From assembly GCA_002868855.1 (NCBI GenBank), contig PKUM01000126.1, positions 1 through 58,208 of the forward strand: DNA of 58,208 nt, written 5' to 3'. The notes beneath the pieces were generated by a model, which saw nothing but the letters and a program-made list of their open reading frames with translations, did no database searches and was not told the origin of the DNA. Source of the stretch: Chromatiales bacterium (GTDB lineage Bacteria; Pseudomonadota; Gammaproteobacteria; Steroidobacterales; BM003). This document shows positions 39,507 to 55,175 of the stretch, piece by piece. The translations under genes and the position numbers were made by a program. Numbering within the stretch: position 1 is the stretch's first letter; every line of letters starts with the position of its first letter.

Positions 39507-40676
39507 TCAATCCCGGTCGCAGTGGCGCTCGCTCATCATGGCGCTGACTCGCGCCACAGTGCGCTCTACATCTGCAAGAGGCGGCACCGGACCCGCTGGC
39601 GGCGGTTCCGCGAACCAGCCCATTCTGCCCTCGGCCAGCAAGCGCTCATAGACAATGCGCAGTTCGCGCGAAAGTCGCCGAGGCCCGATCTTCATCAACA
39701 ACCAATAGGTCATCGCCGACAGTCTGAAGTCGTCCTGGCGCAGCCAGTCACCCGGCTTTTCCCTCCGGCCGCGTTCATGGCGCATCGCCAGGGTCGCGCG
39801 CCCCAGGTCGTAAACGGACACGGGTTTGCAGGTGGCGCAAGCCTCGCTCAGCATCGCAATACTGTCACCCGTGACGACCAGTTCGTCCGCGGATGCCAAA
39901 TACGCAAAATACGGATTCGGCGTGTTTTTACGCCACGGGAAAAAATCGTAGTTACCGGTCAGATTTGACTCGATTTCGGCCACCGCTTCCTTGCTGGTGC
40001 GCGAACTCGTGGTAACCAGCAACGAGCCATTGAGTTTCTGCGCATACCGACTCACCTCGGCCGCAAGCCGCCGGCCGCCGTTGGCACCAAGCGTGTACGG
40101 TCCACTATTACCGCCGACAATTACGCCGATGTGCGGGCGCGGCAAATTCGCCAGCCGCGAATGCCATTCCGATTCCGCGCGCTTCAGCTTCTCTACCGTT
40201 ACGGCCTGTAACGTCGTACTGTTCTCCAGGACACGCGGCGCGGGCGTCACACGATACTGCGGGGTCGTTACCAGCAGATCGAAATGCTCCACCGGCGCCC
40301 AGGTTCGGCCAATGAATACCACGCGGGTCGCGCCTCCCGATTCGGCCGCGATCCAGCGCGCAACCGGCTCGTTTCGTAGTCCCGAGGTTATTAGCAGGTC
40401 AGGCCACGGTGGTTCCAGCTCAGCCCGGCTCCGCGCGGCAACGCCGGCGCTTGCCGACACGCGAATCAGGCCAATCGCTCCGGCCGACCAGCGATAATGC
40501 ATTACCTTGCGTTCGTACGGCCACGCCAGTGCCTCGGCCAGCGCGAGGATTTGCGATGACTCACCTGCACGATGGCTTAGCAAGGCCCAGACCCGTGGCG
40601 GGGAGGCCGCAACACTCGTTCGCTTGTCTTCCAGTCGCGCCAAGAAACACCCTGTCGCAAAAACCGGTGGCAGCAT
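39507..40676 (-). CDS. ELM1-family (DUF1022) putative GT-B enzyme, paralogue 1
   Basis: A 389-residue protein of the mitochondrial-fission ELM1 family (DUF1022). Conserved blocks shared with its two paralogues: PRVWALLSHRAGESSQILAL, PWPDLLITSGLRNEPVARW, VVFIGRTWAPVEHFDLLVTT, VIVGGNSGPYTL, and NPYFAYLASADELVVTGDS followed by SEACATCKPV. Two Rossmann-like halves and the late D-S plus E-A-C pattern resemble the sugar-nucleotide site of GT-B glycosyltransferases. In plants ELM1 recruits a dynamin to mitochondria; the bacterial role is not established. The first 28 residues lack family similarity, so the true start may be later. It is divergent from paralogue 2. Confidence 0.8.
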   Translation of the reverse strand: MLPPVFATGCFLARLEDKRTSVAASPPRVWALLSHRAGESSQILALAEALAWPYERKVMHYRWSAGAIGLIRVSASAGVAARSRAELEPPWPDLLITSGLRNEPVARWIAAESGGATRVVFIGRTWAPVEHFDLLVTTPQYRVTPAPRVLENSTTLQAVTVEKLKRAESEWHSRLANLPRPHIGVIVGGNSGPYTLGANGGRRLAAEVSRYAQKLNGSLLVTTSSRTSKEAVAEIESNLTGNYDFFPWRKNTPNPYFAYLASADELVVTGDSIAMLSEACATCKPVSVYDLGRATLAMRHERGRREKPGDWLRQDDFRLSAMTYWLLMKIGPRRLSRELRIVYERLLAEGRMGWFAEPPPAGPVPPLADVERTVARVSAMMSERHCDRD

Positions 40677-40829
40677 CTATGCTAGCCATGGTTTGCGCCA
40701 CGATCGCCAAGGCCCGGTACTGTAGCGGCATTGCCGGACGGATAGAACCCATCGAAACCCAATGCGACGCAACACATGCTCCAACAACGCCTTTAACTTC
40801 GTAACAACCATGCTCCGACTGGAACAGCT

Positions 40830-41894
40830 GTGCCGCCCCTGACCTGGCTGGTGCTCGGTGACAAAATCGGCGACAACGCCCAGGTGGAGTTGATCGCAGA
40901 TGCGCTCGGTTGGCCATTCGAGCGTAAATCGCTGGTGTTCCTGCCGCAATTTCGCACCGGAAAACCGCGATTCCGGCCCACATTGAGCCACCTTGATCGC
41001 GATCTCTCCGCTGCACTCGAAGCGCCGTGGCCCGACCTGATTATTACGATCGGACGGCGGCCCTCCATGGCGGCGCTCGCGGTACGCGAGCTATCCGGAA
41101 ACCGCTCCCGAGTCGTTATGATCGGCCGTCCGCGCCGGTTGCCCGAACTGGCCCTTGGCGTGGTTACGCCGCAGTATTCCGTGCCGGCTGCAGACAACGT
41201 AATGCATCTCGACTATCCCCTGATGAAAATCGATACTGACGCGATTTTGGCTGAGAAATCCGCGCATGCAGCATCGATGTCGAGGCTTCCGCGCCCGCTT
41301 ACTGCGGTACTGGTAGGCGGCAGTACCTCGCCATTTGTACTGGATGTCGGGGCTGCAAAACAATTATTGGCGCAAACCCGAAAATGCTGCGTGGGCGGCA
41401 CCAATTACCTGAGCACCAGCCGCCGCACCGACGCGGCGGTTGTGGACTACCTGGCCGACACGATGCGCGAAGACGAACGCTTGTATCGCTGGCAGCCCGA
41501 TGACCCGGACAATCCGTACCTTGGACTCCTCGCACATGCGGATCGGGTCGTCGTCACCTGCGACAGCATTTCGATGATGATGGAAGCCGCAAGACTCGGT
41601 AAGCCTCTGGCAATATTCGAGGTCCCGACGCTCTTCACCCCCAGCCAGAAGACCCGGCGGCGCATGGCCCGGGCGCTGGATCCGACCGTCGGCGGCAACA
41701 AGCGCTTCAAGCGATGGTTGTATACGGCCGGACCAATGAGTTTTCCGCGGGATCTGGGACGAATGCAGCGCGCACTTGTCGCCGAAGGCGTAGCGGTTGC
41801 GCTGGGTGCGCCCTTTCCGCCCCCCCATGCCGGTCTGCCCAATGAAAGTCAGGCAGTGGCGGCACGCATTCGCGCGCTGTTCCATGGCCAGTGA
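40830..41894 (+). CDS. ELM1-family (DUF1022) putative GT-B enzyme, paralogue 2
   Basis: A 354-residue ELM1-family protein, the most divergent of the three. It keeps PLTWLVLGDKIGDNAQVELI, PWPDLIITIGRRPSMAALAV, VVMIGRPRRLPELALGVVTP, AVLVGGSTSPFVL and NPYLGLLAHADRVVVTCDS with MMEAARLGKPLAIFEV. No membrane segment is seen. The start is a GTG right before the conserved domain; no ATG fits. It is followed after 116 bases by acp-spt on the same strand, suggesting shared expression with ceramide synthesis. A glycosyl or phosphosugar transfer to the lipid is my inference. Confidence 0.8.
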   Translation: MPPLTWLVLGDKIGDNAQVELIADALGWPFERKSLVFLPQFRTGKPRFRPTLSHLDRDLSAALEAPWPDLIITIGRRPSMAALAVRELSGNRSRVVMIGRPRRLPELALGVVTPQYSVPAADNVMHLDYPLMKIDTDAILAEKSAHAASMSRLPRPLTAVLVGGSTSPFVLDVGAAKQLLAQTRKCCVGGTNYLSTSRRTDAAVVDYLADTMREDERLYRWQPDDPDNPYLGLLAHADRVVVTCDSISMMMEAARLGKPLAIFEVPTLFTPSQKTRRRMARALDPTVGGNKRFKRWLYTAGPMSFPRDLGRMQRALVAEGVAVALGAPFPPPHAGLPNESQAVAARIRALFHGQ

Positions 41895-42010
41895 CAGGGA
41901 CGCGAGGTATCGGACCGGGCGCGCCGATAGCGTATACTCCGCAGGCGAATCCGGACCGCGCCGGACTTCGCACGAGCAGCGCGCAACAGGCAGCATAGGG
42001 AGAGAAAGCG

Positions 42011-42262
42011 GTGGGTTCTTACCAGGAAAGCGTCACCCTTATTTACGAAGCGCTCGAGCCTTTTCTTCAGCCCGGGCTGGTGCTAAGCGAGGATTCGGCT
42101 CTGGTCTCGGATCTGGGACTTAGCTCTCTTCAGGTAATGGAACTCGTTGCCGAAGTCGAGGACAGGCTCGATATCACCGTGCCGCTAAACGTCCTGCCGG
42201 ATGTGCGCAGTATCCGGCAGTTTGCCGAATTGCTTTCGCGACTGACCGGTGACGCAACATGA
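42011..42262 (+). CDS. Dedicated acyl carrier protein of the ceramide pathway
   Basis: An 83-residue acidic helical carrier protein. The phosphopantetheine serine is Ser39 in DLGLSSLQVMELVAE; the usual Asp before this serine is replaced by Ser38. It starts with GTG after AGGGAGAG and overlaps spt as ATGA, so it is translationally coupled to it. By analogy with the carrier protein of the Caulobacter ceramide locus it would present an acyl chain, loaded by the AsR-like ligase at 52.4 kb, to Spt. It is distinct from the fatty-acid-synthesis AcpP, whose gene is not in this window. Confidence 0.9.
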   Translation: MGSYQESVTLIYEALEPFLQPGLVLSEDSALVSDLGLSSLQVMELVAEVEDRLDITVPLNVLPDVRSIRQFAELLSRLTGDAT

Positions 42263-43479
42263 GCCTGCTGGAGAAGTTCGAGCCGCTGAGTTCAATCCGC
42301 GAAGATCTGAACGCTCACGGCATGATGCCATTTGGTGTCGTAACGGAAAAAATCCTGTCGCCCACCGAAGGGATGGTCGACGGCAAACGTACCATCCTGG
42401 CCGGCACCAATAATTATCTGGGGCTGACATTTGCGCCGGAATGCGTTGCAGCGGCTCAGCAGGCCACCGCGGACGAGGGAACCGGAACCACCGGTTCGCG
42501 TATGGCAAATGGCACTTACAGCGGCCACCGCGCCCTCGAGCAGGAACTGGCACAGTTTTTTGGCCGCGAATCGGCCATGGTTTTTACGACGGGTTTCCTG
42601 GCGACGATGGGCATGGTCGCGACCCTGACCGGTCCCGGCGATGTATTGCTGATTGACGGCGACAGTCACGCGAGCATCTATGACGGCTGCAAACTGAGTG
42701 GCGCTGACATCGTACGATTTCGCCACAATGATCTGGCCGATCTCGAGAAACGCCTGCGGCGGCTGGGCGAACGGACGGCCAACACTCTCATCGTATCGGA
42801 AGGCCTGTACAGCATGATGGGTGATCAGGCGCCACTGGCCGGCATTGTTGAGCTGAAACGGAAATACGGTGGCTATCTTCTGCTCGACGAGGCGCACTCG
42901 GTAGGTGTGCTAGGCGCGCACGGTCGCGGACTTGCGGAAGCAGCCGGAGTCGAGGACGAGGTTGATTTTGTGGTTGGCACATTCAGCAAGAGTCTTGGCT
43001 CGGTCGGTGGCTTCTGCGTCAGCAGCCGTCCCGAACTCGAACTGATTCGCATGGCTGCCCGCGCCTATATTTTTACTGCCTCGCCGACGCCTTCGGTCGT
43101 GGCCTCGACGCGTGCGGCGCTTAGACTCGTCGCAGCACATCCGGAACTGCGGGAAAAGTTGTGGCGCAATGCTACGCGGCTCTACGACGGGCTGGCAAAA
43201 ATCGGCTATCAACTGGGCCCGCAGGCTGGCCCGGTCGTCGCTGTTTTCGTGGATGATCGCGAGCAAGCGATTGCGGGCTGGCATCAGCTGCTGGCCGCCG
43301 GCGTCTACGTCAATCTGGTGCTTCCCCCGGCGACGCCAACCGGCGCAAGCCTGCTGCGATGCAGCCTGAGCGCGGCGCACACGGACGAACAGATTGACAA
43401 GATCCTGGAAGCGTTTGCCGGTTTACCTGTCGCGGCGGGTGTACCAGCGCCATCGCAGGCGCGTTCCCAGAACGTTTAG
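42259..43479 (+). CDS. spt: Serine palmitoyltransferase (alpha-oxoamine synthase)
   Basis: A 406-residue PLP enzyme of the alpha-oxoamine synthase family, predicted to condense serine with a fatty acyl thioester to 3-ketosphinganine, the first step of sphingolipid synthesis. The PLP lysine is Lys244 in GTFSKSLGSVGG; LLLDEAHSVGVLG supplies the ring-contacting Asp and His. GTNNYLGLTFAPE, DGDSHASIYDGC and SEGLYSMMGD are typical. It differs from Kbl at 6.5 kb (SKSLG against GKALG) and is coupled to an acyl carrier protein rather than tdh. BioF or 5-aminolevulinate synthase are excluded mainly by context. Confidence 0.9.
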   Translation: MSLLEKFEPLSSIREDLNAHGMMPFGVVTEKILSPTEGMVDGKRTILAGTNNYLGLTFAPECVAAAQQATADEGTGTTGSRMANGTYSGHRALEQELAQFFGRESAMVFTTGFLATMGMVATLTGPGDVLLIDGDSHASIYDGCKLSGADIVRFRHNDLADLEKRLRRLGERTANTLIVSEGLYSMMGDQAPLAGIVELKRKYGGYLLLDEAHSVGVLGAHGRGLAEAAGVEDEVDFVVGTFSKSLGSVGGFCVSSRPELELIRMAARAYIFTASPTPSVVASTRAALRLVAAHPELREKLWRNATRLYDGLAKIGYQLGPQAGPVVAVFVDDREQAIAGWHQLLAAGVYVNLVLPPATPTGASLLRCSLSAAHTDEQIDKILEAFAGLPVAAGVPAPSQARSQNV

Positions 43480-43509
43480 GCGAACACGCTCGCAGTAGGA
43501 TCCGCGAAC

Positions 43510-45261
43510 TTATGTGGTGCCCGATACCGACACCGCCCCCTCGCCGCCAGCGCGACGACCATCGACGAGTTTCCCATTGGCAAGCCGATAGACCCTATCG
43601 GCAATCTCCGCGAGCGCCGGCTGATGCGAAACGGCGAGGATGGTCAGGTCGCCTTTCAAATGGGTCAGAGTCGCGCAAATTTCCGCTTCGCTGGACGGGT
43701 CGAGCGCGCTGGTGGCCTCATCGAGTACTAGCAGACGCGGATTATGCGCCAGCGCCCGTGCCAGCATTATGCGCTGGCGCTGACCTGAACTCAGGCGCGC
43801 ACCGCCCTCGCCGACGGTTGCGTGAATCCCGCCGGGCATCTCCGTGACAAAATCCCACGCCTCGGCTGCACGCAATGCCCGCTCCGCCTGTTGCTCGCCG
43901 AGTTCCGGGTCACTGAGCGTGACGTTGTTCAACACGCTGTCATGCAGCAAAAGGGTCTCCTGCGGCACATACCCGAGCTGGCGACGCCAACTCCGGATAT
44001 CGAGCTCTCCCATTGGTCTTCCATCGATCAGTACTTCGCCATCGGTCGGGCGCTGCAGACCCATAATCAGATCGAGGACCGTGGTCTTGCCGGACCCGGA
44101 CGGACCGATCAACGTGGTCAGGCAACCCGCCGGAATCTCGATAGTCACATCGTCGAGAACCTTTTGTTCGCCATGGGCAAAACTGACGCCGCGTAAGGAT
44201 ATCCCCTGTGCCAGGGGCGGCGCCGGTTCGCCGGCCACATTTTCACGACTCTCGACAGCCTCGTCGACCGCCTCCTGCAGTGACCAGTAAGCACTGCCCG
44301 CCGCAACCATTTTCTGGTAGTACTTCTGAATCTTGCCAAGCTGACTCAACACCTTGGTCAGCACGATCAGCAACACCATGACTTCGGCTATGGGCATCTG
44401 CCATTTCTGCAGCAGAATGAACATTCCGAGCGCCATTACGGTCGCAAACAGCGGCTCTTGCACAGCGCTCAACGCTGCCTTGCTAAAAACCTCTTTTTCC
44501 AGCGCCCTATTGACTTTGTTCGTCTCGACCGCGAGCACTCCGCCAGCGAGATCTTCACGCCCCATCGCCTTGAGGCTGCGCACCGAACGCAGCGTGTCGG
44601 TCATCCGGGCGAGCAGCGATTTCATCCATACCGTCTGCCGCTTGCCTGCGCGACGCGTCATCCTCACCAGGAAATGCGAAATCGCGAGAATAAACACTGC
44701 CGCGATCAGCGACGCCACCACGGCCTGCCACGAAACTGCAAGCGCGACGGCGCTATAGACCATTGCCTGGATAAGCAACGCGACGATCGTCGCGCCGAAC
44801 TCGTACGCCTGGGCCGCCCGCCATGCCTCGGTCGCCATGCTGTTGGTCAAGCGCCCGGTGGGTTGAGTGACGAAGTAACCCCATTTGGACTCGAGAACAC
44901 TGTTCAGAAGTCTGAGCCGAAGATCCGTGGCCACCCTGGCCTTGGTGTACCCCACCTGCTTTTCCGCGAACAAGACCAGCACATTTTTCAGGAAGACGCC
45001 AATTACAACGAATATCAGCAGGCTGCCTATCGAGGGTTCGACACCGAATTTATCCAGCAGACCAGTAACGAAGTCGGTCACACTGTTGTCCGGTAGCACT
45101 GGCTCCGAATCGGACCCGTCCCCGGCCTGAACCGCAAAACTGGCCAGAGGCAAAAGCGCCGACAGGCTGGAGCCCTCCGCTATTCCGGCCAGAAGCAGAG
45201 CGGTAACCATCAAAAAACTCTGCCACGGGTAGGACCGGGCGTATGTCAGCATCAGTTCCAT
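43510..45261 (-). CDS. MsbA-like ABC exporter half-transporter
   Basis: A 583-residue fused permease-ATPase that would dimerise in the inner membrane. About six membrane helices occupy residues 10-320. The ATPase domain has Walker A GPSGSGKTTVLDL, Q-loop YVPQETLLLHD, signature LSSGQRQRIMLARAL and Walker B LLVLDEATSALD. This is the type-I exporter plan of lipid flippases such as MsbA and of drug or peptide exporters. Inside a sphingolipid island, flipping of ceramide or a ceramide-linked glycolipid is the natural proposal, not proven. It converges on spt and is divergent from ELM1 paralogue 3. The ATG at 45261 is preferred over a longer frame to 45348. Confidence 0.9.
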   Translation of the reverse strand: MELMLTYARSYPWQSFLMVTALLLAGIAEGSSLSALLPLASFAVQAGDGSDSEPVLPDNSVTDFVTGLLDKFGVEPSIGSLLIFVVIGVFLKNVLVLFAEKQVGYTKARVATDLRLRLLNSVLESKWGYFVTQPTGRLTNSMATEAWRAAQAYEFGATIVALLIQAMVYSAVALAVSWQAVVASLIAAVFILAISHFLVRMTRRAGKRQTVWMKSLLARMTDTLRSVRSLKAMGREDLAGGVLAVETNKVNRALEKEVFSKAALSAVQEPLFATVMALGMFILLQKWQMPIAEVMVLLIVLTKVLSQLGKIQKYYQKMVAAGSAYWSLQEAVDEAVESRENVAGEPAPPLAQGISLRGVSFAHGEQKVLDDVTIEIPAGCLTTLIGPSGSGKTTVLDLIMGLQRPTDGEVLIDGRPMGELDIRSWRRQLGYVPQETLLLHDSVLNNVTLSDPELGEQQAERALRAAEAWDFVTEMPGGIHATVGEGGARLSSGQRQRIMLARALAHNPRLLVLDEATSALDPSSEAEICATLTHLKGDLTILAVSHQPALAEIADRVYRLANGKLVDGRRAGGEGAVSVSGTT

Positions 45262-45472
45262 GTGACGGTCAGAATTCTCTCGGTCTGATTCACAATGCGT
45301 ACGGCTCGCATCATGTCTATTACAGGATGCCCGGTGAGCAACAAACAACCTTTATGCCGTTCAGCGGATCAGGCGGGAAATGCACCCCGTACAGTCGCGG
45401 CAGTGAGCTCGCATTATACACTCGGCTAACGCTTGCTTCCTGTTGCCGCGACAAGCATTACAATGCGCTCCC

Positions 45473-46612
45473 ATGAGCGCCGATCGCGACAGACCGCACC
45501 CAGATAAGCAATTGCAGCCGCAGCCTCGAGTTTGGGCGCTGCTCGGTCACAAAGCCGGCGACAACAACCAGGTACTGGCGCTCGCCGAGGCACTTGGTCT
45601 GCCGTTCGAAAAGAAAGTTTTCTCGTATCGGCGCAGCGAGTTGCTCAGCAACCTCTTTCTCGGTCCGACCCTTCTGGGCACACGAGGCAGCGAATCGTCC
45701 GTGCTCGAGCCGCCCTGGCCTGACCTCGTCATCACATCCGGGCGGCGAAACGAACCCGTTGCGCGCTGGATCCGCGAGCAAGGGGGACCTGGAGTACGGA
45801 TCGTGCATATTGGGAGGCCATGGGCCCATCCCGAAAATTTCGATCTTGTCATTACCACTCCGCAATACGAACTCGCCGAGGCAGGCAATGTCATGCGCCG
45901 CGAGCTACCCATGCACCGCGTGGAGTCGGCAAAAGTAAGCGCCGCGGTAAGCGCGTGGAAACCCAGGCTCAGTCATCTCGCCCCGCCCTACATTGCCGTT
46001 TTGATCGGCGGCCAGAGCGGCCCGTATTACCTGGACACGAAAAAGGCCCGCCGGCTCGCCCACGAAGCCAGCGCGTTGGCGCGATCACTGCACGGTGCCC
46101 TGCTGGTCACATCGAGTGCGCGCACCCCGGCAGCGGTAATCGATGCATTTGTCGATGCGGTCGAAGCGCCGAACTTCGTATATCGATGGGCACCTGGCAA
46201 CGGCGAGAATCCGTACCTCGCGTTCCTCGGGCTGGCCGACGCCTTCATTGTCACCAGCGAGAGCATGTCTATGCTCGCCGAAGCCTGCGCGATGCAAAAA
46301 CCGGTTTACATGTTCGACATGGACGACCGCGCAGGCGGCGACGGCCAGCCGGCCCTACCCGGGCTCCAGGCAACCGCGGCCGAGCGCTGGATCAATGCGC
46401 TGCGTTACAAGGCGTGGACCCATCGCCTGGCACAGGGCCTGGCACCCCGGAGAATGCGGCGCGATATCGGTCGTATGCACCGGGCGTTGCTGGCTTCGGG
46501 CCGCGCCGTATGGCTGGGGCAGCGGTTTCCGGACGTTGCGCCGCCGCCTTTACCGGATGGTTCCCGCGCGGTGGAGCGAGTTCGCGATCTGCTGGCTCTG
46601 CCCGACGAATAG
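45473..46612 (+). CDS. ELM1-family (DUF1022) putative GT-B enzyme, paralogue 3
   Basis: A 379-residue ELM1-family protein, close to paralogue 1: PRVWALLGHKAGDNNQVLAL, PWPDLVITSGRRNEPVARW, IVHIGRPWAHPENFDLVITT, AVLIGGQSGPYYL and NPYLAFLGLADAFIVTSES with LAEACAMQKPVYMFDM. The start ATG at 45473 opens with a hydrophilic tail before the domain. No signal peptide or membrane helix is present, so it is likely cytoplasmic or peripheral. Its divergent neighbour is the ABC exporter, with 211 bases between them; it converges on the glycosyltransferase gene. Confidence 0.82.
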   Translation: MSADRDRPHPDKQLQPQPRVWALLGHKAGDNNQVLALAEALGLPFEKKVFSYRRSELLSNLFLGPTLLGTRGSESSVLEPPWPDLVITSGRRNEPVARWIREQGGPGVRIVHIGRPWAHPENFDLVITTPQYELAEAGNVMRRELPMHRVESAKVSAAVSAWKPRLSHLAPPYIAVLIGGQSGPYYLDTKKARRLAHEASALARSLHGALLVTSSARTPAAVIDAFVDAVEAPNFVYRWAPGNGENPYLAFLGLADAFIVTSESMSMLAEACAMQKPVYMFDMDDRAGGDGQPALPGLQATAAERWINALRYKAWTHRLAQGLAPRRMRRDIGRMHRALLASGRAVWLGQRFPDVAPPPLPDGSRAVERVRDLLALPDE

Positions 46613-46641
46613 CGGGCCACGTTCGATTCAGGCGCGGACCA

Positions 46642-47580
46642 TCATGCAGCAGGCAATTCCATGGGCAGGCCCGGCCCAGGATGCAGTGGCCGGGTCCGCT
46701 CCAGGACCTCGAACGCATCATGGCGAACGTGGTTCGATGCCATCTCGCTGCGCAACATTTGCTCGGTGACTATGCCCTTGTCGACGCACTCCTTCAGCAA
46801 ACCGAAGAAGAACCGCTCCTGGTTCGGATCCGGATGACTGCGGTATTTGCCGAGAAATGCATACTCTCCGAACAGCCGCCGCCGCGCACGCATGATCCAG
46901 GCCAGCGGCGGGAACAAACGGAATCGTTCAGCTGGCCGCCAGTCGGTAGGTAATCCTGTTTTCCAGGGTTGGGTTTTGCGCCGCGTGTTGTGCAACAGAC
47001 GGGTATCGCTGGCCAGCCGGTCAAAGTCGTTCCATTGTTTTTCCAGCGGCCCGATTGATTCGGGATCTTCGGTTTTCAGGCAGATCCACGGCATATAGTC
47101 ACGCTTGAATTCAAACATCTCGCGGAATCCCTGTTCGGCATTCCAGTGAGTAAGCCGCGCGCAATCGAGAAGCATTACACTGCTGGCAAAACATTTGTCT
47201 ATGAACCCCTTCGGGCCCGAGCGCGCACGGCACAAAATAGACTTGCCTTGCATATCGCGATTAAGCAGTTCCCAGACATCGCCTACGGCAAAAATGTCGG
47301 GATCTATCACGACCGCCCGTCCCTGATAACCCATCAGCTCCGGGGGCATAAATCGCAATGGAGTAAAGGACTGCAGATCTTCGTAAAGCCAAACCCGACT
47401 AACTCCGTCACGCAGGTACATCTGGCCTTCGTATTCACGTAACCAAGGATAATCCTCGGTGTGAATCAACTTCACATCGAACTTGTCTGCATGCGCGGAA
47501 TTACGTTTGAGCGCGTACTGGGCAACCAGAGCGCCGACAATTTGCTTGTGATTCGTGTGGATGAAAACACAATGGTCCAC
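46642..47580 (-). CDS. GT8-like glycosyltransferase family protein
   Basis: A 312-residue protein with a GT-A-like layout. The N-terminus VFIHTNHKQIVGALVAQYAL begins the fold. AVVIDPDIFAVGD contains the D-x-D element that binds metal and nucleotide sugar (about residues 91-103). SVMLLDCARLTHWN and LHNTRRKTQPWKTGLP, the latter with the GT8-type late His, follow. I expect transfer of a sugar, perhaps to the ceramide or its head group. The GTG start follows GAAGAGG. It lies 129 bases downstream of the Tam41-like gene on the same strand. Confidence 0.68.
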   Translation of the reverse strand: MDHCVFIHTNHKQIVGALVAQYALKRNSAHADKFDVKLIHTEDYPWLREYEGQMYLRDGVSRVWLYEDLQSFTPLRFMPPELMGYQGRAVVIDPDIFAVGDVWELLNRDMQGKSILCRARSGPKGFIDKCFASSVMLLDCARLTHWNAEQGFREMFEFKRDYMPWICLKTEDPESIGPLEKQWNDFDRLASDTRLLHNTRRKTQPWKTGLPTDWRPAERFRLFPPLAWIMRARRRLFGEYAFLGKYRSHPDPNQERFFFGLLKECVDKGIVTEQMLRSEMASNHVRHDAFEVLERTRPLHPGPGLPMELPAA

Positions 47581-47709
47581 GATTAACGTACCTCTTCAAT
47601 GTATTGCAGCCACCGCCTTCGGAACACGGCTGGATCAGCGGAATTGCGACGGGGCATCAAAGCGCGGATTTTACCGTATCGCCCGGCAGTCGCGAAGGAG
47701 CAGGCAAAA

Positions 47710-48651
47710 TTATCGAAACGCTCCCTGACGGTATAGCCGCCACAGCTCCCCCCACAGAAAGATCAGAGGGTATCTCCGCGCCCGGTCGCTCAACGTGACC
47801 CGTACGCCGGTGTGACGCTCGAGTTTCCATACGGCATAGTCGAGACCACCGTCAAAAGTCGCTAAAGCCTTGAGCCAGCGCGCGATACTTAGACATTTGC
47901 CCTGCAGACCACGCACTCGCCAGCAAAATGCCGACCAGCGTCGCGCCCAGGCACTTGCGCTAAAACTGAGCGGCAACTGGTTTGCTGGCTCCACCTCGAT
48001 ATTCGTGGCCGCGGCTGCGCTATACGTAACAGCAGCAAAATACGGTGCCGACGAATCAGCGAGTTCAATTCCGCGCGTTCCCGATTCCGGCCGCAATTCA
48101 CTGCGATAACTGCGACTAAGGCCCTCTCTCCAGAGCTGCATGGCATCGAACTGCGCCGGCAAAACAGGAGCGGTACGAGACATCAGGGTGCACACCGCCC
48201 TGGCAAGGCAGTCGACGATAAATTCCCGTGTCGTCTCGTTTGCGGAAAAAACCAGCTGGCACGGCTGCGAAAATCTGCCCCACAGGTAGGAGTGAAACCA
48301 CCGCTCGCTGGTGCCACGGCGAAAATCCCGGCGCGATATCAGCGCATACTTGGTGCGTGCCACCGCACCGTCAATCTCCACTTCCATGTATTTGACAGTG
48401 GGCGGAATTATGAAATAAACAAGCGAGCGCCAGAAGGAAGACAACGCCGCAGGATAGCTGCTGACAACCACGTAAAGATCGACCACACCTTCGAGCGCAT
48501 CACCCTGGCGAAGACAGGACCCGTAGTAAAGGATGGCGTCCACGGCATCGCCATACCGTTGCCGCAATACGACTCCGAGTTGCTCCACCGCATCCGGCGA
48601 CTCGGCTGAGATCTGGCGGCTGATCAGTTGTTGGAGAGACGGCGCTGTCAT
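47710..48651 (-). CDS. Tam41-like nucleotidyltransferase (phosphatidate cytidylyltransferase family candidate)
   Basis: A 313-residue protein resembling Tam41, the mitochondrial CDP-diacylglycerol synthase. The nucleotidyltransferase signature YYGSCLRQGD is followed by an acidic VVDLYVVVSSY, matching the G-S and D-x-D elements. VKYMEVEIDGAVARTKYALI and RRDFRRGTSERWFHSYLWGRFSQP match the Tam41 pattern of a K-Y segment followed by a W...LY..GR...P segment. It has no strong membrane segment. If it activates a lipid phosphate with CTP it could form CDP-linked ceramide or CDP-diacylglycerol for head-group transfer; this is inference. Another nucleotidyltransferase role is possible. Confidence 0.6.
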   Translation of the reverse strand: MTAPSLQQLISRQISAESPDAVEQLGVVLRQRYGDAVDAILYYGSCLRQGDALEGVVDLYVVVSSYPAALSSFWRSLVYFIIPPTVKYMEVEIDGAVARTKYALISRRDFRRGTSERWFHSYLWGRFSQPCQLVFSANETTREFIVDCLARAVCTLMSRTAPVLPAQFDAMQLWREGLSRSYRSELRPESGTRGIELADSSAPYFAAVTYSAAAATNIEVEPANQLPLSFSASAWARRWSAFCWRVRGLQGKCLSIARWLKALATFDGGLDYAVWKLERHTGVRVTLSDRARRYPLIFLWGELWRLYRQGAFR

Positions 48652-48702
48652 CGCAACAAGCCTCGCACCGCGATGGGCGCTCGTTATTCCACGACATGTC
48701 GG

Positions 48703-49761
48703 ATGGCAGTATATACTTCCGCGACGCCAAGCTGTGGAGGTGCCGCAATCGCATTCGCGAGCAAATCTTATTTGCCTAGCCCACCGAACCCATCCGACTC
48801 GAACGAATCGTTACGCAGCGCGCCTCGTGACGAGCTCGTGTTCGCCCATCTGACCGACCCGCATCTCACCCGGCCCGATCCGGTAAATGGCGCCGATCTG
48901 GCGAACAAAAGGATACTTGGCTATCTGTCATGGAGGCGCCGACGGCACGCCATTCATCGCAGTGACATCATTGAGGCCCTGGTGACGGATTTGCATGCGC
49001 AAACTCCGGACCATATCGCTGTCACCGGAGACCTTACCCAGATCGGCCTTCCAGGCGAGTGTCGCGATGCCCGAACATGGCTGGAGAATCTTGGGCCAAG
49101 CGCGAAGATCAGCGTGGTCCCCGGCAATCACGATCAGTATGTCGACGCGCCATGGAAAGAAACGCTTGGACTCTGGTACGACTACATGGCCTCGGATGCG
49201 GGTTCGGCCTCGAATGAGCTTTTCCCGAGTATCCGGGTGCGCGGGCCGGTTGCCTTCATTGGCGTATCCTCCGTCTACCCTTGCCCGCCGCTACTGGCCA
49301 CCGGGCGGGTTGGAAAAACCCAGCGTGAGGCGCTGGAAAAGGTGCTCCGAGAAACCAGCGATCGCGGATTATGCCGGGTAGTTCTGATCCATCACCCCCC
49401 TGTTCCCGACAGTTACAAGTGGCGAAAACGTCTCGAGGATGCGCGTGAAACCTGTGCGATTTTGCGCTCGGCGGGAGCAGATCTGGTTTTGCACGGACAT
49501 ACCCATCGACTGATGCTCAACGAACTGGAAAGCGAAACCGGTAATCTGCCTGTATTCGGCCTTTCGTCAGCATCGGCCGGAGATCACGAGTTCGAGCGCC
49601 GCGCCCGCTATTTTCTGTATCGCGTCAGCCGCGATGACCACGGCATCGGGATAACCTGGTCGTCGCGAGTCTTTGATCCCGAATCGGCCGAATTCCGGAT
49701 GGAAAGCGACTGGCGAAGTATTTCGCAAATAGCCCGGGCGTTGCGCGCCGATCAGGGCTAG
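48703..49761 (+). CDS. Calcineurin-like metallophosphoesterase
   Basis: A metallophosphoesterase with all five family motifs: AHLTDPHL, VTGDLTQIG, VPGNHDQY, VLIHHPPVP and LHGHTHRL, giving a two-metal hydrolase site. It resembles cAMP phosphodiesterase/UDP-diacylglucosamine hydrolase-like enzymes. The start is uncertain: ATG at 48703 gives 352 residues, but the family usually begins close to the first motif, and a GTG at 48838 preceded by GACGAG gives 307. Within the cluster it might dephosphorylate a lipid or head-group intermediate. It is divergent from the Tam41-like gene and overlaps the MobA-like gene end by 4 bases. Confidence 0.85.
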   Translation: MAVYTSATPSCGGAAIAFASKSYLPSPPNPSDSNESLRSAPRDELVFAHLTDPHLTRPDPVNGADLANKRILGYLSWRRRRHAIHRSDIIEALVTDLHAQTPDHIAVTGDLTQIGLPGECRDARTWLENLGPSAKISVVPGNHDQYVDAPWKETLGLWYDYMASDAGSASNELFPSIRVRGPVAFIGVSSVYPCPPLLATGRVGKTQREALEKVLRETSDRGLCRVVLIHHPPVPDSYKWRKRLEDARETCAILRSAGADLVLHGHTHRLMLNELESETGNLPVFGLSSASAGDHEFERRARYFLYRVSRDDHGIGITWSSRVFDPESAEFRMESDWRSISQIARALRADQG

Positions 49762-50567
49762 CCAGGCTCACGCGCCGCGACCATCGCCCTGACCCGACGC
49801 AGGTCTTCCGCACTGTCCACATCTATCGCCGCTTCGCCGTGCTTCATCAGCACTGGTGCCACCGTCGCGCCGCTGCGCCGGGACAACGCCCCCAGCCCCT
49901 GACTCAGCGAGAGGCGGCCACTGACGAAGCGCAGCAGGGTAAACAAACCGAGACTGCGAATAACGCGGACCGGGTTTTTGCGATGGGCCTCGACCCGGCG
50001 CCAAAAACCAACGGCGTCGCGACCGCGCTGGGTCATGAACGCAAAGAGATTACAGCCGCAGTAATCACCATCGCTAAATCGGCTGACTGTCCGCCGTGTA
50101 TCCGGAGAGGCGGCGAGGACCTTTTGATGGGTTGCAAGGGCAATGGCCACATCGGCGCCGCAAGTGCGCGCTCCGCCGCAGAACTCATCCACATATTCGC
50201 TTTGCAGCAAAGCATGATCCGCAGTCGTGACCAGCACAGGCGCAGCCGAATCGAGCGTTTCCAGTGCGGCGATTACACTTCGACTCGGGGTCTCGGCTCC
50301 CATCACGCGACGCACAGAGCGCGCCGCCAAAACCGCCTCTACATCTGCCGGTAGCTCCCCGCTCAAACCCACTACCACGATCTCGGAGACCGACTGACTC
50401 GTCGCAAGCGCTGCGATTACCCGGCTAACCATCGCGACGCCACCAATCTCGGCAAGCGCCTTGGCGCGAACCCCCGCGGCTTCGGCTACCGGGTCGGAGG
50501 GTCCACGACTGCCCGCAAGCACTATCGCGATGAATTTCTGGCCCGTTTGCGCCTGATCACTGGCCAT
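49758..50567 (-). CDS. MobA-like NTP nucleotidyltransferase
   Basis: A 269-residue Rossmann-type nucleotidyltransferase. IAIVLAGSRGPSDPVAEA gives the nucleotide loop, KALAEIGGVAMVSRVI the conserved Lys region, LVTTADHALL the metal-binding Asp, and AAIDVDSAEDLRRVRAM a typical C-terminus. Such enzymes join NTP to a phosphorylated small molecule. It starts 12 bases after the BCerS-like gene on the same strand, so the two are co-transcribed. A cytidylyltransferase of this fold (CpgD) has been reported for ceramide diphosphoglycerate synthesis in Caulobacter; whether this is its counterpart cannot be told from motifs alone. Confidence 0.8.
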   Translation of the reverse strand: MASDQAQTGQKFIAIVLAGSRGPSDPVAEAAGVRAKALAEIGGVAMVSRVIAALATSQSVSEIVVVGLSGELPADVEAVLAARSVRRVMGAETPSRSVIAALETLDSAAPVLVTTADHALLQSEYVDEFCGGARTCGADVAIALATHQKVLAASPDTRRTVSRFSDGDYCGCNLFAFMTQRGRDAVGFWRRVEAHRKNPVRVIRSLGLFTLLRFVSGRLSLSQGLGALSRRSGATVAPVLMKHGEAAIDVDSAEDLRRVRAMVAAREPG

Positions 50568-50579
50568 GGCTGCTAGTAC

Positions 50580-51719
50580 TCACCCAAGAGCCTTTTCGAA
50601 CAGACGATAGCGCTTGTAGGCAACTCCGCCGATCGACTCAATTATGTTGCGCATGCCGAGGTTGTCCGCAAGTATCCACGACAATTCAACTTCTTCGATT
50701 CCGCGCCGGGCAAGCACCTCCCGTTCCGCGTCTATCAACGTAAATGCCAGTCCCGGGCCCATTCGTGTGTTCTGGAATTCCTTCCGCACCCCCATTAACG
50801 GAACACGAGCGGTGCGCGGATATCGCACCTTCAGGCGCCACAAGAGCCTCGCCCAGTTGAACGGAAGCAGACGCCCACCCATATCGGCGATGACTTCGTT
50901 GAGATTCGGCAGCGCCACGATCATCGCTGCCGGACGGCCTTCGACCTCGGCGATCTGCACCATATCGGGGTCGGCAAGGTGCAGCATGGCGCGGCCGATT
51001 TCCGCAAACTCCGCTTCGGTAAATGGAACAAACCCCCAGTTCTCCGACCACGCGTCATTGAAAACATCGCGCAGTATCGCGAGCTCCTCATCGAGACGAT
51101 CGCGGCGCAGATCGCGCACGACAGTACGCTTTTTCACATACGCCACCAGTTTTCGCATGACCGCGGGCGCTTCGTATTGTGGCGGCATGATGTAGGCCAG
51201 GGTGTCTGCAGCGCCGATGTAACCGTATTGCGCCAGTCGATCCGCGTAGTAAGGTCGCGCGTGCCCCATCATCATCGATGGTGGCGTATCGAATCCCTCA
51301 ACCAGCAACCCGCATTCCTCGTTGACAGTCAGGTTGAATGGCCCACGCACCCGGTGCATTCCTTGTTCGCTTAACCAGCGTTCCGCCGTCCCGAGCAAAG
51401 CGCCGAAAACCGCCGGGTCGTCAACGCTTTCAAGCATGCCGAAGAAGCCGGTATTGTCAGCGTAGCGCTGCAGGTGAAGCTGGTCGATTTGGGCGCTGAT
51501 TCGCCCCACACATTTGGCGTCGCGCAGCGCCACCCATGCATGCCATTGCAGATGATCAAAAACGGGATTCTTAGAGGAAAAATGCTGTTTACGCTCGACA
51601 AGTAACGGAGGTACCCAACTGGGGTCCCGCGAGTAGATCGTCCGAGGCATCCGCAGGAATTGTCTGAAGGCCTTCCCGGAAACTGCCGACACAATATTTA
51701 AATCTTTATTATCAGACAC
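50580..51719 (-). CDS. bcerS: GNAT-fold N-acyltransferase, bacterial ceramide synthase (BCerS) candidate
   Basis: A 379-residue protein with an N-terminal region (FRQFLRMPRTIYSRDPSWVPPL, then KNPVFDHLQWHAWVALRDAKCVGRI, a GNAT-like strand) and a C-terminal GNAT half (EVEGRPAAMIVALPNLNEVI to GIEEVELSWILADNLGMRNI). RVRGPFNLTVNEECGLLVEG between them is typical of this family, to which the Caulobacter ceramide synthase belongs. It would N-acylate 3-ketosphinganine or sphinganine. The start is GTG, and a consensus TATAAT (51722-51727, leftward) stands directly before it, so either the message is leaderless or the motif is fortuitous. It heads a two-gene operon with the MobA-like enzyme. Confidence 0.78.
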   Translation of the reverse strand: MSDNKDLNIVSAVSGKAFRQFLRMPRTIYSRDPSWVPPLLVERKQHFSSKNPVFDHLQWHAWVALRDAKCVGRISAQIDQLHLQRYADNTGFFGMLESVDDPAVFGALLGTAERWLSEQGMHRVRGPFNLTVNEECGLLVEGFDTPPSMMMGHARPYYADRLAQYGYIGAADTLAYIMPPQYEAPAVMRKLVAYVKKRTVVRDLRRDRLDEELAILRDVFNDAWSENWGFVPFTEAEFAEIGRAMLHLADPDMVQIAEVEGRPAAMIVALPNLNEVIADMGGRLLPFNWARLLWRLKVRYPRTARVPLMGVRKEFQNTRMGPGLAFTLIDAEREVLARRGIEEVELSWILADNLGMRNIIESIGGVAYKRYRLFEKALG

Positions 51720-52372
51720 TTATTATACCGCCACTGGGCAAGACACAGTGTGCGCATCGGAACCCGAAAACTCGCCGGTTGCACCGCACAAAAGAAAGCT
51801 TCCTTTCCGCCGGATATGAAATTAGAATTGTACGCTTGATTTGCCTAGGGGTAGCTAGGGGTGGTCATGCGGGCGCAGGCAGTATAGCCTTGGGATCCTG
51901 CGGTTGCCATGCAATGCTCAGGGCCAGAACGTGTCGATCCGACGTGCGACTAGGGGCCGGTAATTCGAGAGACTGGCCGCGGAAACATGGAGATTCAGGG
52001 GGCGGGCGGATCGATCAAACAGCACCAGTCGAGAATAACGACAAGTTGCGAGACCTGGCTCGGGGAAGAGTCTGGTCGGCGCAGTGTTGCGTTTCTGGTT
52101 TGGCGGTGAGCGCGGTGAGTTGATTGCCAATAATCAATTCGCTCGCGATGTTTCCGCAAGGTGCATAGTTCAGTAAAATGAGTTAATTAGGTAAGATAGT
52201 TTACGCAGCGGTGGAATTTTACCCGCCTTTGAAAAAACGCCAGGAAATTTGCTCTTACAGGGATTGTTGATTCAGTTTGCGAAGCCTTCCCCTTTGCGGG
52301 CGGGGAAGTACAGGGCGAAGGTGGGATCGGATCAACCGGGGGAAAGGCCCAGGAGAGAGGTACAGCTTAGGT
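51720..52372. other. Long divergent intergenic region of the ceramide cluster
   Basis: This 653-base gap separates the BCerS-like and AsR-like genes, which diverge from it. I see no credible gene on either strand. It contains a repeated TAGGGGTAGC/TAGGGGTGGT element (about 51846-51865), an AT-rich tract (52168-52205) with a weak rightward promoter candidate (TTCAGT, 17 bases, TAAGAT), and a TATAAT on the leftward strand at 51722-51727. It is the obvious place for joint regulation of both arms. Confidence 0.6.
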
Positions 52373-54148
52373 ATGGAAGCAACACCTACGCAGAATAACT
52401 TGCCACTCCGACCAGCGGATTTCTCTGGTCTCGCCGAGGCGTTGGATTACGCCGCACAAGGTGAGACAGGTGCAAATTTCTATGACGGTCGCGGCCGGCT
52501 GTATGCGGCACTGCCCTATTCCGAGATGCGCGAACGTGCCAGAAGCGTGGCGCGGAGAATCATCGGACTCGGCCTTAAACGCGGCGATCGCGTCGCGCTG
52601 GTTGCGGAAACCACCCCGGATTTTGTCGTCTTTTTCTTCGCCTGCCAGTATGCCGGCGTCATTCCGGTTCCGCTTACCGCGGCAGTAACGCTCGGTAGCC
52701 ATAACGCCTATGTGCGCCAGTTGCATGGTTTCCTTACCAACTGCGATGCGTCGATCCTGATCGCACCGCCCGGGTACGAGGAGTACCTGGATGAGGCAAG
52801 CGAGGGCGTCAAACTCGAATTTTGCGGGACGCCCGAGGCATTTGCCGAACTGCCGGAGGCTGACGTCGAACTGCAGCCGCTTTCCGGAAAAGAAACCGCC
52901 TATATCCAGTACACATCTGGCAGCACCCGTTTTCCGCGTGGCGTGATGATCACCGAGGAAGCGGTGTTGAACAATCTCAAGGGCATTGCGGTTGACGGCG
53001 CTGAAATTCGTCCCGGCGATCGTTTTTTCTCCTGGCTACCGTTTTACCACGACATGGGCCTGATCGGTCTCGTACTGACCCCGGTCGCCTGTCAGATCTC
53101 TGTCGACTACCTGGGCACACGTGAGTTCGCCATGCGGCCGCGCCTGTGGCTCGAGCTGATGACGCGAACCAAAGCTTCGGTGTCGTTCAGCCCACCATTC
53201 GGCTACGAACTGTGCGCGCGTCGCCTGCGCAGCGGTGATGCGGAAAATTATGATCTCAGCAACTGGCGCATCGCCGGCGTAGGAGCCGAGATGATTCGTC
53301 CGGAAATCCTGCATATGTTTGGCGAGGCACTCGAGCCGAGCGGTTTCGACGAGAAAGCTTTCCTCCCCTGTTATGGCATGGCCGAATGTTCTCTCGCAAT
53401 CAGCTTTGATCCGCTGGGAACTCCGATAACGGTTGACGAGATCGACAACGAACACCTCTCCAATACGGGCGAAGCGGTTCCGGTTACGACGCCAGAACAA
53501 AAGGCCCGCTCGCGCGCATTCGTAGTCTGCGGTGCGCCGCTGCCCGAATATGAAGTCGAGATTCGGGCCGAAGACGGCACGCCGATGCCCGACCGTCGCA
53601 CGGGCACAATATTCGTGCGTGGTCCGAGCGTAATGTCCGGTTACTACAACGAGCCGGAGATAACTGCGCAGACATTGTCTCAGGATGGTTGGCTGAATAC
53701 CGGTGACATCGGTTACCGCATCGGCAAAGAGCTGATCATTACCGGGCGTAAGAAAGACCTGATTATCATCAATGGCCGAAACATCTGGCCACAGGATCTT
53801 GAATACCTGGCGGAGCAACAACCAGAAGTTCGCACCGGAGATGCGCTGGCTTTTTCCGCGCCCGGTGCGGGCGGCGAAGAAACTACGGTACTGGTAGTTC
53901 AGTGCCGACTGCGTGACACGGAGAGACGCAGCCAGCTTGTCGAGCGGCTGCAACAACTCGTCCGGGAAGAGCTGGGCATCGACTGTAAGGTAGAACTGGT
54001 ACCGGCGCACACGCTGCCGCGGACGTCCTCTGGCAAGCTTTCGCGCTCCAAGGCTCGCCAGAACTATATCGAGAGTCGCGGCGAACAATTCGGATTGTCG
54101 ACCGTCCCCGGCAAACGCAGGGGCCGTGTCGCGGCCGCGGGCAGGTAA
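52373..54148 (+). CDS. Fatty acyl-AMP ligase / acyl-ACP synthetase (AsR-like)
   Basis: A 591-residue adenylate-forming enzyme. The AMP-binding motif is YIQYTSGSTRFPRG at about 177-190. WLPFYHDMGLIG, PCYGMAECSLAISF, GWLNTGDIGY and the C-terminal TSSGKLSRSKARQNY follow. It is closest in pattern to fatty acyl-AMP ligases that load carrier proteins rather than CoA. With acp and spt it would prime the acyl chain for ceramide, as AsR does in Caulobacter. The ATG at 52373 is chosen because the domain starts just after it; an upstream extension to 52277 looks non-coding. It is followed by a strong terminator, so cerR may have its own or read-through transcript. Confidence 0.88.
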   Translation: MEATPTQNNLPLRPADFSGLAEALDYAAQGETGANFYDGRGRLYAALPYSEMRERARSVARRIIGLGLKRGDRVALVAETTPDFVVFFFACQYAGVIPVPLTAAVTLGSHNAYVRQLHGFLTNCDASILIAPPGYEEYLDEASEGVKLEFCGTPEAFAELPEADVELQPLSGKETAYIQYTSGSTRFPRGVMITEEAVLNNLKGIAVDGAEIRPGDRFFSWLPFYHDMGLIGLVLTPVACQISVDYLGTREFAMRPRLWLELMTRTKASVSFSPPFGYELCARRLRSGDAENYDLSNWRIAGVGAEMIRPEILHMFGEALEPSGFDEKAFLPCYGMAECSLAISFDPLGTPITVDEIDNEHLSNTGEAVPVTTPEQKARSRAFVVCGAPLPEYEVEIRAEDGTPMPDRRTGTIFVRGPSVMSGYYNEPEITAQTLSQDGWLNTGDIGYRIGKELIITGRKKDLIIINGRNIWPQDLEYLAEQQPEVRTGDALAFSAPGAGGEETTVLVVQCRLRDTERRSQLVERLQQLVREELGIDCKVELVPAHTLPRTSSGKLSRSKARQNYIESRGEQFGLSTVPGKRRGRVAAAGR

Positions 54149-54192
54149 GGCGCTGCCTTCTTGTCAGGCCGTGCTCGACCGGCTTGTTGATC

Positions 54193-54220
54193 AAGGGCAC
54201 CTGTCGGTGCCCTTTTTATT
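54193..54220 (+). terminator. Strong intrinsic terminator after the acyl-AMP ligase gene
   Basis: GGGCACC at 54195-54201 and GGTGCCC at 54206-54212 form a 7-base GC-rich stem with a 4-base loop, extended by AA/TT pairs, followed by TTTTTATT. It stands 44 bases beyond the stop and 26 before cerR, so it could attenuate cerR. Confidence 0.88.
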
Positions 54221-54245
54221 CCACGAGTAATTACCCAAGGACACG

Positions 54246-55175
54246 ATGGTTAAGATCGCGCTCACTGGCGCAACCGGATTTATCGGACAACACATTGCCA
54301 GGGAATTGTCAGGACACAATGTCTCGGTGCGCCTGCTCGCCAGAAACCCTGCGAAAGTCTTCTTGCCCGATGACGCTGGCGAGGTCGTGCGAGGTTCGCT
54401 GGCAGACGATCAGGCCCTGGCGAGGCTTGTGGCCGGTACCGACGCGGTAATCCACTGCGCCGGCAGCGTCCGCGGCGCCACACTGGAGCAGTTCAGCCGG
54501 GTAAATGCGGATGGAGCCGCCAGGCTTGCAGGAATTGCCCAACGCGAAGGATGCGCGCGCTTCCTGTTGTTATCGTCCCTGGCCGCGAGGGAACCCGGAC
54601 TGTCGCCCTACGCAGCGAGCAAACGCGCCGGCGAAAAGAGCGTGGCGCAGGCGGCTGGCACGATGACATGGGCTGCATTTCGCCCCCCTGCCGTGTACGG
54701 GCCCGGTGACAAGGAAATGCTGCCGCTGTTTCAGCTAATGGCCCGTGGCGTGGCGCCGGTTTTCGGTTCAAAAGATGCACGCTTTTCGTTAATTTTTGCA
54801 CCCGACCTGGCGCAGGCCATCGTCGCATGGAGCCTGACCGAAGAGCCGCCGCCGGGGATATTCGAACTCGACGATGGAAAGAAGAACGGTTACGGCTGGC
54901 GCGATATTACAGAGACCATCACTGCGCTGACCGGCAAACCGATACGCATGCTTCGCATTCCGTCTTCCGTACTGAGTATTCCGGCAGCGGTAAACTGGGT
55001 GCTTGGACGATATCTGAATCGCACGCCAATGTTGACTCCCGGCAAAATCCGCGAATTGCGTCATCCCGACTGGGTCTGCCACCCAAACCCGGCCCTTGCC
55101 GCCGTAGGCTGGCGACCACAGCATTCTCTGGCCGAGGGCCTGGCAGCGACACCGGGCTGGCGCCGCGAGACCTGA
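54246..55175 (+). CDS. cerR: NAD(P)-dependent epimerase/reductase, ceramide reductase (CerR) candidate
   Basis: A 309-residue extended short-chain dehydrogenase. The nucleotide motif is GATGFIG at 8-14; the catalytic Tyr122 and Lys126 stand in SPYAASKRAGE, and LLLSSLAA supplies the Ser. The protein ends with helices typical of NAD-dependent epimerases. In Caulobacter a protein of this kind (CerR) reduces the 3-keto group of ceramide. The ATG follows AAGGA. It is downstream of the AsR-like gene on the same strand, across a terminator. Confidence 0.82.
   Translation: MVKIALTGATGFIGQHIARELSGHNVSVRLLARNPAKVFLPDDAGEVVRGSLADDQALARLVAGTDAVIHCAGSVRGATLEQFSRVNADGAARLAGIAQREGCARFLLLSSLAAREPGLSPYAASKRAGEKSVAQAAGTMTWAAFRPPAVYGPGDKEMLPLFQLMARGVAPVFGSKDARFSLIFAPDLAQAIVAWSLTEEPPPGIFELDDGKKNGYGWRDITETITALTGKPIRMLRIPSSVLSIPAAVNWVLGRYLNRTPMLTPGKIRELRHPDWVCHPNPALAAVGWRPQHSLAEGLAATPGWRRET

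Follow-up and report, generated by a model that had tools for sequence, protein, structure and literature searches.

Which lipid a Chromatiales bacterium makes from its ceramide genes is the question raised by contig PKUM01000126.1. The sequence studied, referred to as the window, is a stretch of 58,208 nt of this contig, and the genes in question form an island at positions 39507-55175. The source genome is a draft assembly of 337 contigs. A complete set of five ceramide biosynthesis genes is present in the window. We read the island as a Rhodobacteria-type ceramide pathway together with a glycosylating and exporting module, a reading to which we assign a probability of roughly 75%. The gene content suggests that the product is a glycosphingolipid, perhaps sulfated, instead of the known phospho-type. 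What is new here is the head-group module and not the ceramide genes.

The five core genes are given below, with identities to the proteins of the five-gene ceramide cluster described in E. coli BL21(DE3) (PMC9386255).

42011-42262, + strand: AcpR, dedicated acyl carrier protein (PF00550; attachment serine S39; 43% identity)
42259-43479, + strand: Spt, serine palmitoyltransferase (NF047599; pyridoxal phosphate lysine K244; 56% identity)
50580-51719, - strand: BCerS, bacterial ceramide synthase, an N-acyltransferase (50% identity to YghO over 373 amino acids)
52373-54148, + strand: AasR, acyl-AcpR synthetase (NF006624; 48% identity)
54246-55175, + strand: CerR, 3-oxo-ceramide/3-oxo-sphinganine reductase of the short-chain dehydrogenase/reductase type (PF01370; 43% identity)

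The first-pass annotation, made from the window alone, had named these five functions; all five open reading frames were found where it placed them, each matching its counterpart in the E. coli BL21 cluster. The acpR gene is directly upstream of spt, its end overlapping the spt start (ATGA). The ATG of aasR is at 52373, in a frame that is open from a TTG at 52277.

Spt scores 624.7 bits against the NCBIfam serine palmitoyltransferase model NF047599 (cut-off 500). The scores against the bioF model (343 bits) and the glycine C-acetyltransferase model (316 bits) are both under the cut-offs of those models. The best PDB matches are bacterial serine palmitoyltransferases of the Sphingomonas type (460 bits), followed by Kbl (232), cysteate acyltransferase (204) and BioF (187), and the catalytic residues H137, D210, H213 and K244 are kept in the alignment. 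BioF and Kbl, named at the outset as identities that would speak against a ceramide pathway, were rejected by the NF047599 score and the PDB ranking, Spt grouping with the serine palmitoyltransferases instead. A second doubt raised at that stage was that the acyltransferase and the epimerase-like protein might belong to unrelated families; both fall with known ceramide proteins. Another alpha-oxoamine product of Spt and its partners, e.g. a capnine-like sulfonolipid base, would be in keeping with the breadth of the alpha-oxoamine synthase family and with the sulfotransferases held by related clusters. We regard such a product as very improbable, since Spt passes the serine palmitoyltransferase model, scores far higher against this enzyme (460 bits) than against cysteate acyltransferase (204 bits) and is accompanied by orthologues of BCerS and CerR.

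AasR scores 821 bits against the fatty acyl-AMP ligase model NF006624 (cut-off 600), and CerR carries the motif GATGFIG and a YxxxK motif (Y122/K126). For BCerS no Pfam family was found, and the PDB search gave a weak match to a GCN5-related acetyltransferase (E 0.23). Its identity as a ceramide synthase holds by the similarity to YghO; the GNAT fold that had also been proposed was not reproduced by the Pfam and PDB searches, and this label rests on the literature.

Orthologues of these enzymes have been studied experimentally in Caulobacter, and the first steps also with E. coli proteins. By analogy, AasR would load a fatty acid on AcpR, Spt would condense acyl-AcpR with serine to 3-oxo-sphinganine, BCerS would attach the second acyl chain and CerR would reduce the ketone to give dihydroceramide. 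The order of the BCerS and CerR steps is debated (PMC11087976). As predicted from these similarities, the island in all likelihood directs dihydroceramide synthesis.

Gammaproteobacterial ceramide clusters have been reported before, in E. coli B (PMC9386255) and in Azotobacter vinelandii and Pseudomonas luteola, where the genes are contiguous (PMC11324152). A BCerS alignment was scanned against one genome per species and gave at least 575 relatives among at least 592 candidates. Gene neighbours were counted in the best 80 of the at least 575 bcerS loci; because many of these are truncated, lying on incomplete contigs, all counts over the 80 loci are lower bounds. The 80 include Serratia, Escherichia, Pantoea, Erwinia, Pseudomonas, Azotobacter, Stutzerimonas, Rhodanobacter, Nitrosomonas, Desulfobulbaceae, Gemmatimonadetes and Rokubacteria, and many metagenome-assembled genomes came up in the scan. 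The core partners aasR (48 loci), cerR (44), spt (44) and acpR (42) recur beside bcerS, whereas three window genes flanking the island, used as negative controls, occur in 0/80 loci; the linkage of the core genes is far beyond chance. In an even sample of the class, the Spt model was found in 18 of 274 genomes, 16 of them over the cut-off. The earlier statement that sphingolipids are rare in this class is contradicted by the published clusters, by the many found in the BCerS scan and by this sample. Ceramide genes in a gammaproteobacterium are thus not new in themselves.

Between and beside the core genes lie four genes predicted to encode glycosyltransferases.

39507-40676, - strand: ELM1-family protein A, predicted GT-B glycosyltransferase (PF06258, 189 bits; 41% identity to ELM1 C)
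40830-41894, + strand: ELM1-family protein B (PF06258, 167 bits)
45443-46612, + strand: ELM1-family protein C (PF06258, 210 bits; AlphaFold2 model)
46642-47580, - strand: GT8-like glycosyltransferase 'u46', without a Pfam family (AlphaFold2 model and Foldseek)

The three ELM1 paralogues are well over the PF06258 cut-off of 27 bits, and their matches stop near position 264 of the 304 of the model. The protein u46 has a sub-threshold GT8 match only. As PDB sequence profiles gave nothing useful for ELM1 and u46, folds were compared. The AlphaFold2 model of ELM1 C (predicted local distance difference test, pLDDT, 85) matches GT-B glycosyltransferases and UDP-GlcNAc 2-epimerases (E 3e-7), and the model of u46 (pLDDT 81.5) matches XXYLT1, LARGE1, GlyE and LgtC by Foldseek (E 7e-9 to 7e-7). 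The models support a GT-B fold for ELM1 C and a GT8 fold for u46; at template modelling scores of about 0.4 they speak for the fold class and not for donor, acceptor or substrate. Nothing linking ELM1 to a sphingolipid or a glycosyltransferase was found in the open-licence literature searched, and to our knowledge bacterial ELM1 proteins are known only under the mitochondrial-fission name.

Association with spt was evaluated in the class sample, excluding the source genome, i.e. in 17 spt-positive and 256 spt-negative genomes, by Fisher tests that ignore relatedness. ELM1 is present in 11/17 vs 50/256 (p 1.3e-4). At least two ELM1 copies occur in 5/17 vs 3/256 (p 2.5e-5), and a GT8-like protein was found in 4/17 vs 0/256 (p 1.1e-5). 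Of the 80 bcerS loci, 13 contain ELM1 and 6 contain the GT8-like protein. Homologues of ELM1 B adjoin ceramide genes in G048, G137, L074 and L055, and the module as such stands in synteny beside ceramide genes in G048, G137, G184 and Roseovarius (L074). A single open reading frame of about 800 amino acids carries both the GT8-like and the ELM1 match in L072, L079, L094 and G024.

Two further loci of the source genome hold related genes. C170 (L122:5084-10978) has a GT8-like paralogue, two Sulfotransfer_1 proteins, a 2-oxoglutarate-Fe(II) (2OG-Fe(II)) oxygenase, an ELM1 protein and an LpxL-like acyltransferase; C302 (L132:9598-12375) has a sulfotransferase, a GT8-like paralogue and a 2OG-type protein in a row. 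Homologues of these genes sit within the ceramide clusters of Roseovarius, G048, G137 and G184. The ELM1 (GT-B) and GT8-like enzymes would put sugars on the ceramide as its head group, and the C170 and C302 loci may supply sulfate and hydroxyl groups. We lean towards glycosylation of the head group by the ELM1 and GT8-like proteins, while sulfation of the product is put forward tentatively.

The ELM1, GT8-like, sulfotransferase and LpxL-like genes might instead act on lipid A or on O-antigen-like glycolipids, their proximity to ceramide genes being coincidental. The source organism makes lipopolysaccharide (LPS; lpxC is present), and some of the clusters contain an LpxL-like acyltransferase or an O-antigen-ligase-like protein, as this explanation would have it. 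It is nevertheless improbable, as the GT8-like protein is confined to spt-positive genomes in the class sample, ELM1 copy number rises with spt, and the same adjacency recurs across classes.

Four more genes lie among these.

43510-45348, - strand: MsbA-like ABC half-transporter, predicted ceramide-lipid flippase (PF00664 and PF00005)
47710-48651, - strand: putative CpgC (CC_1161) orthologue by synteny, Tam41-like nucleotidyltransferase (39% identity to the Stutzerimonas CpgC-position protein)
48628-49761, + strand: calcineurin-like metallophosphoesterase (PF00149)
49758-50567, - strand: MobA/IspD-like nucleotidyltransferase in the CC_1153 position, adjoining bcerS (PF12804)

The 39% identity of the protein at 47710-48651 extends over its full length, and its orthologue comes after a DAGK-type kinase in Stutzerimonas, Azotobacter and Pseudomonas. 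By profile it matches Tam41 (6ig2, E 8e-4), the mitochondrial phosphatidate cytidylyltransferase. This match fits the proposal that CC_1161 activates ceramide-1-phosphate (PMC11324152), and by synteny with the clusters of the same study we assign the predicted protein as CpgC. Homologues of this nucleotidyltransferase occur in 38 of the 80 bcerS loci, those of the 49758-50567 nucleotidyltransferase in 56 (mostly adjoining bcerS), those of the metallophosphoesterase in 21 and those of the ABC protein in 19; the ABC homologue adjoins spt in Azotobacter, Pseudomonas, Stutzerimonas, Roseovarius and G048. The protein at 49758-50567 was also considered as CpgD and rejected on comparison. The true start of the metallophosphoesterase is probably downstream of 48628, the domain beginning at residue 72; an anti-phage function for it was dismissed, the matches being weak and below cut-off.

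With the CpgC orthologue and the CC_1153-position gene both present and conserved, the product might be one of the known phosphosphingolipids, ceramide phosphoglycerate (CPG) or CPG2 as in Caulobacter. In that case the genes for ELM1 and the GT8-like protein would be additional decorations or unrelated neighbours, and the ceramide kinase would lie in an assembly gap or be replaced by another enzyme. A kinase indeed stands beside cpgC in the clusters of G137, L029, L055 and Roseovarius, and at the far end of the cluster in G048. In the source genome, a Stutzerimonas query for CpgB, the ceramide kinase of the DAGK family, gave no match at E<=0.01, and the sole DAGK-profile match in the genome was rejected as CpgB, being NAD-kinase-like. 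The kinase of L029, L055 and G137 sits between the phosphoesterase and cpgC, which are direct neighbours in the window. It is missing from this position in G048 as well, and is present next to a divergent BCerS: a 557-residue open reading frame (L123:9950-12750) has the DAGK kinase domain in its C-terminal half and lies beside a BCerS homologue with 28% identity.

No CpgA was found in the window, and the three CDP-alcohol transferase (PF01066) loci of the source genome fail to match Stutzerimonas CpgA; a search confined to the window gave no CpgD-like gene. A second set of transport genes, LptF2/LptG2, was not found in the source genome either. Absence of the cpgB kinase is probable, and is unproven because the assembly consists of 337 contigs. 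In view of the kinase, CpgA, CpgD and Lpt2 results, we consider a phosphoglycerate product rather unlikely.

A glycosylated ceramide therefore remains our preferred reading, and several points weigh against it besides the coarse fold comparison and the uncorrected tests given above. Ceramide specificity does not extend to the ELM1 family as a whole, which 50 spt-negative genomes also carry. The loci with GT8-like and sulfotransferase genes could be concerned with a different polysaccharide. A phospho-type head group is favoured by the presence of the CpgC orthologue, although a kinase to supply it was not found and could lie in an assembly gap. In the making of a glycosylated ceramide, both nucleotidyltransferases (the CpgC orthologue and the CC_1153-like protein) would work, as would the phosphoesterase, on an activated intermediate, and the MsbA-like ABC protein would flip the lipid.

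It had been suggested that ceramides partly replace or complement LPS. The presence of lpxC means that LPS is kept, so replacement is ruled out and ceramides can only complement it. The source genome has one LptF and one split LptG; with no Lpt2 set found, export of the lipid may fall to the ordinary Lpt machinery, which would deliver it to the outer membrane.

As to the origin of the island, transfer and an overlooked native trait had both been left open. In the Spt tree the window Spt groups with that of G048, which belongs to the same order (Shimodaira-Hasegawa-like approximate likelihood ratio test, SH-aLRT, 99), within a gammaproteobacterial clade (96) and apart from Roseovarius. The guanine plus cytosine content of the island (0.596) equals that of the left flank (0.592). 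Neither therefore gives a sign of recent transfer from Alphaproteobacteria. The Spt of G184, from the same class as the source, is placed with Roseovarius, and the family thus seems to undergo transfer between classes; the deep branches of the BCerS tree are without resolution. Among relatives, spt is over the cut-off in 8/59 genomes, counting the source genome, and in 0/3 genomes of the same family. This patchy distribution makes gain or loss inside the class likely.

Some further genes were noted near ceramide genes. A fatty acid desaturase-family gene lies two genes left of the island (36308-37282, - strand) and is unlinked to bcerS in the 80 loci; in Caulobacter, the DesA-family protein CC_0202 reportedly hydroxylates the amide-linked acyl chain. 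Fatty acid hydroxylase (PF04116) genes stand within the ceramide clusters of relatives (L019:3046-3672, L074:8073-8720 and L050), suggesting hydroxylated ceramides there, and none is present in the window island. In G053 (L022:1807-8340) an open reading frame of 2177 amino acids with DUF4347, Ig/cadherin-like and OmpA-like barrel domains comes right after acpR-spt, and in G137 (L124:13846-15027) an O-antigen-ligase-like (Wzy_C) protein is found within the ceramide cluster.

Taken as a whole, the first-pass annotation of a complete ceramide island was right in its core identification; its framing by rarity, LPS replacement and transfer fails or is weakened, and it had overlooked both the ELM1/GT8 module and the lack of a kinase. 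A wider proposal, which we offer as a doubtful one, is that an undescribed recurrent module of ELM1 paralogues, a Pfam-less GT8-fold family, sulfotransferases, a 2OG oxygenase and an ABC flippase converts bacterial ceramide to a sulfated glycosphingolipid, bacterial ELM1 proteins being sphingolipid glycosyltransferases and the ceramide-kinase route being displaced in the source genome. If true, it would give a testable function to bacterial ELM1 proteins and to a glycosyltransferase family without a Pfam model, and would predict a new bacterial sphingolipid class in Gammaproteobacteria and Roseovarius. The ceramide core would then travel with at least two head-group modules, phosphoglycerate and glycosyl.

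The ceramide/CPG2 cluster of Caulobacter crescentus covers CC_1168-CC_1152 (PMC11324152). Common to Caulobacter and the window are the five core genes and the cpgC-like and CC_1153-like genes, with the CC_1153-type gene adjoining the ceramide synthase gene. In contrast to Caulobacter, the island is without cpgB, cpgA, cpgD and lptF2/G2; its additional genes are three for ELM1 proteins, one for a GT8-like protein, one for a phosphoesterase and, adjoining spt, one for an ABC exporter. The E. coli BL21(DE3) cluster ECD_02850-02854 (PMC9386255) shares the five core proteins and the divergent bcerS/aasR arrangement; it has lptF2/lptG2 and other neighbours, with no ELM1, CpgC or CC_1153 homologues among them.

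Closer to the window are Azotobacter vinelandii, Stutzerimonas and Pseudomonas (PMC11324152; L102, L049, L044), which share the core, cpgC, the CC_1153-like gene and the ABC gene beside spt. Unlike the window, their clusters retain cpgA, cpgB, cpgD and lptF2/G2. Stutzerimonas and some Pseudomonas have one ELM1 gene, and a u46-type gene was not found in the Stutzerimonas genome. Roseovarius autotrophicus (L074), G048, G137 and G184 share the module of ELM1, GT8-like, ABC and cpgC genes beside the ceramide genes. These four keep the kinase and have sulfotransferase genes in the cluster, mostly also a 2OG oxygenase or LpxL-like gene, whereas the window genome has comparable genes on C170 and C302.

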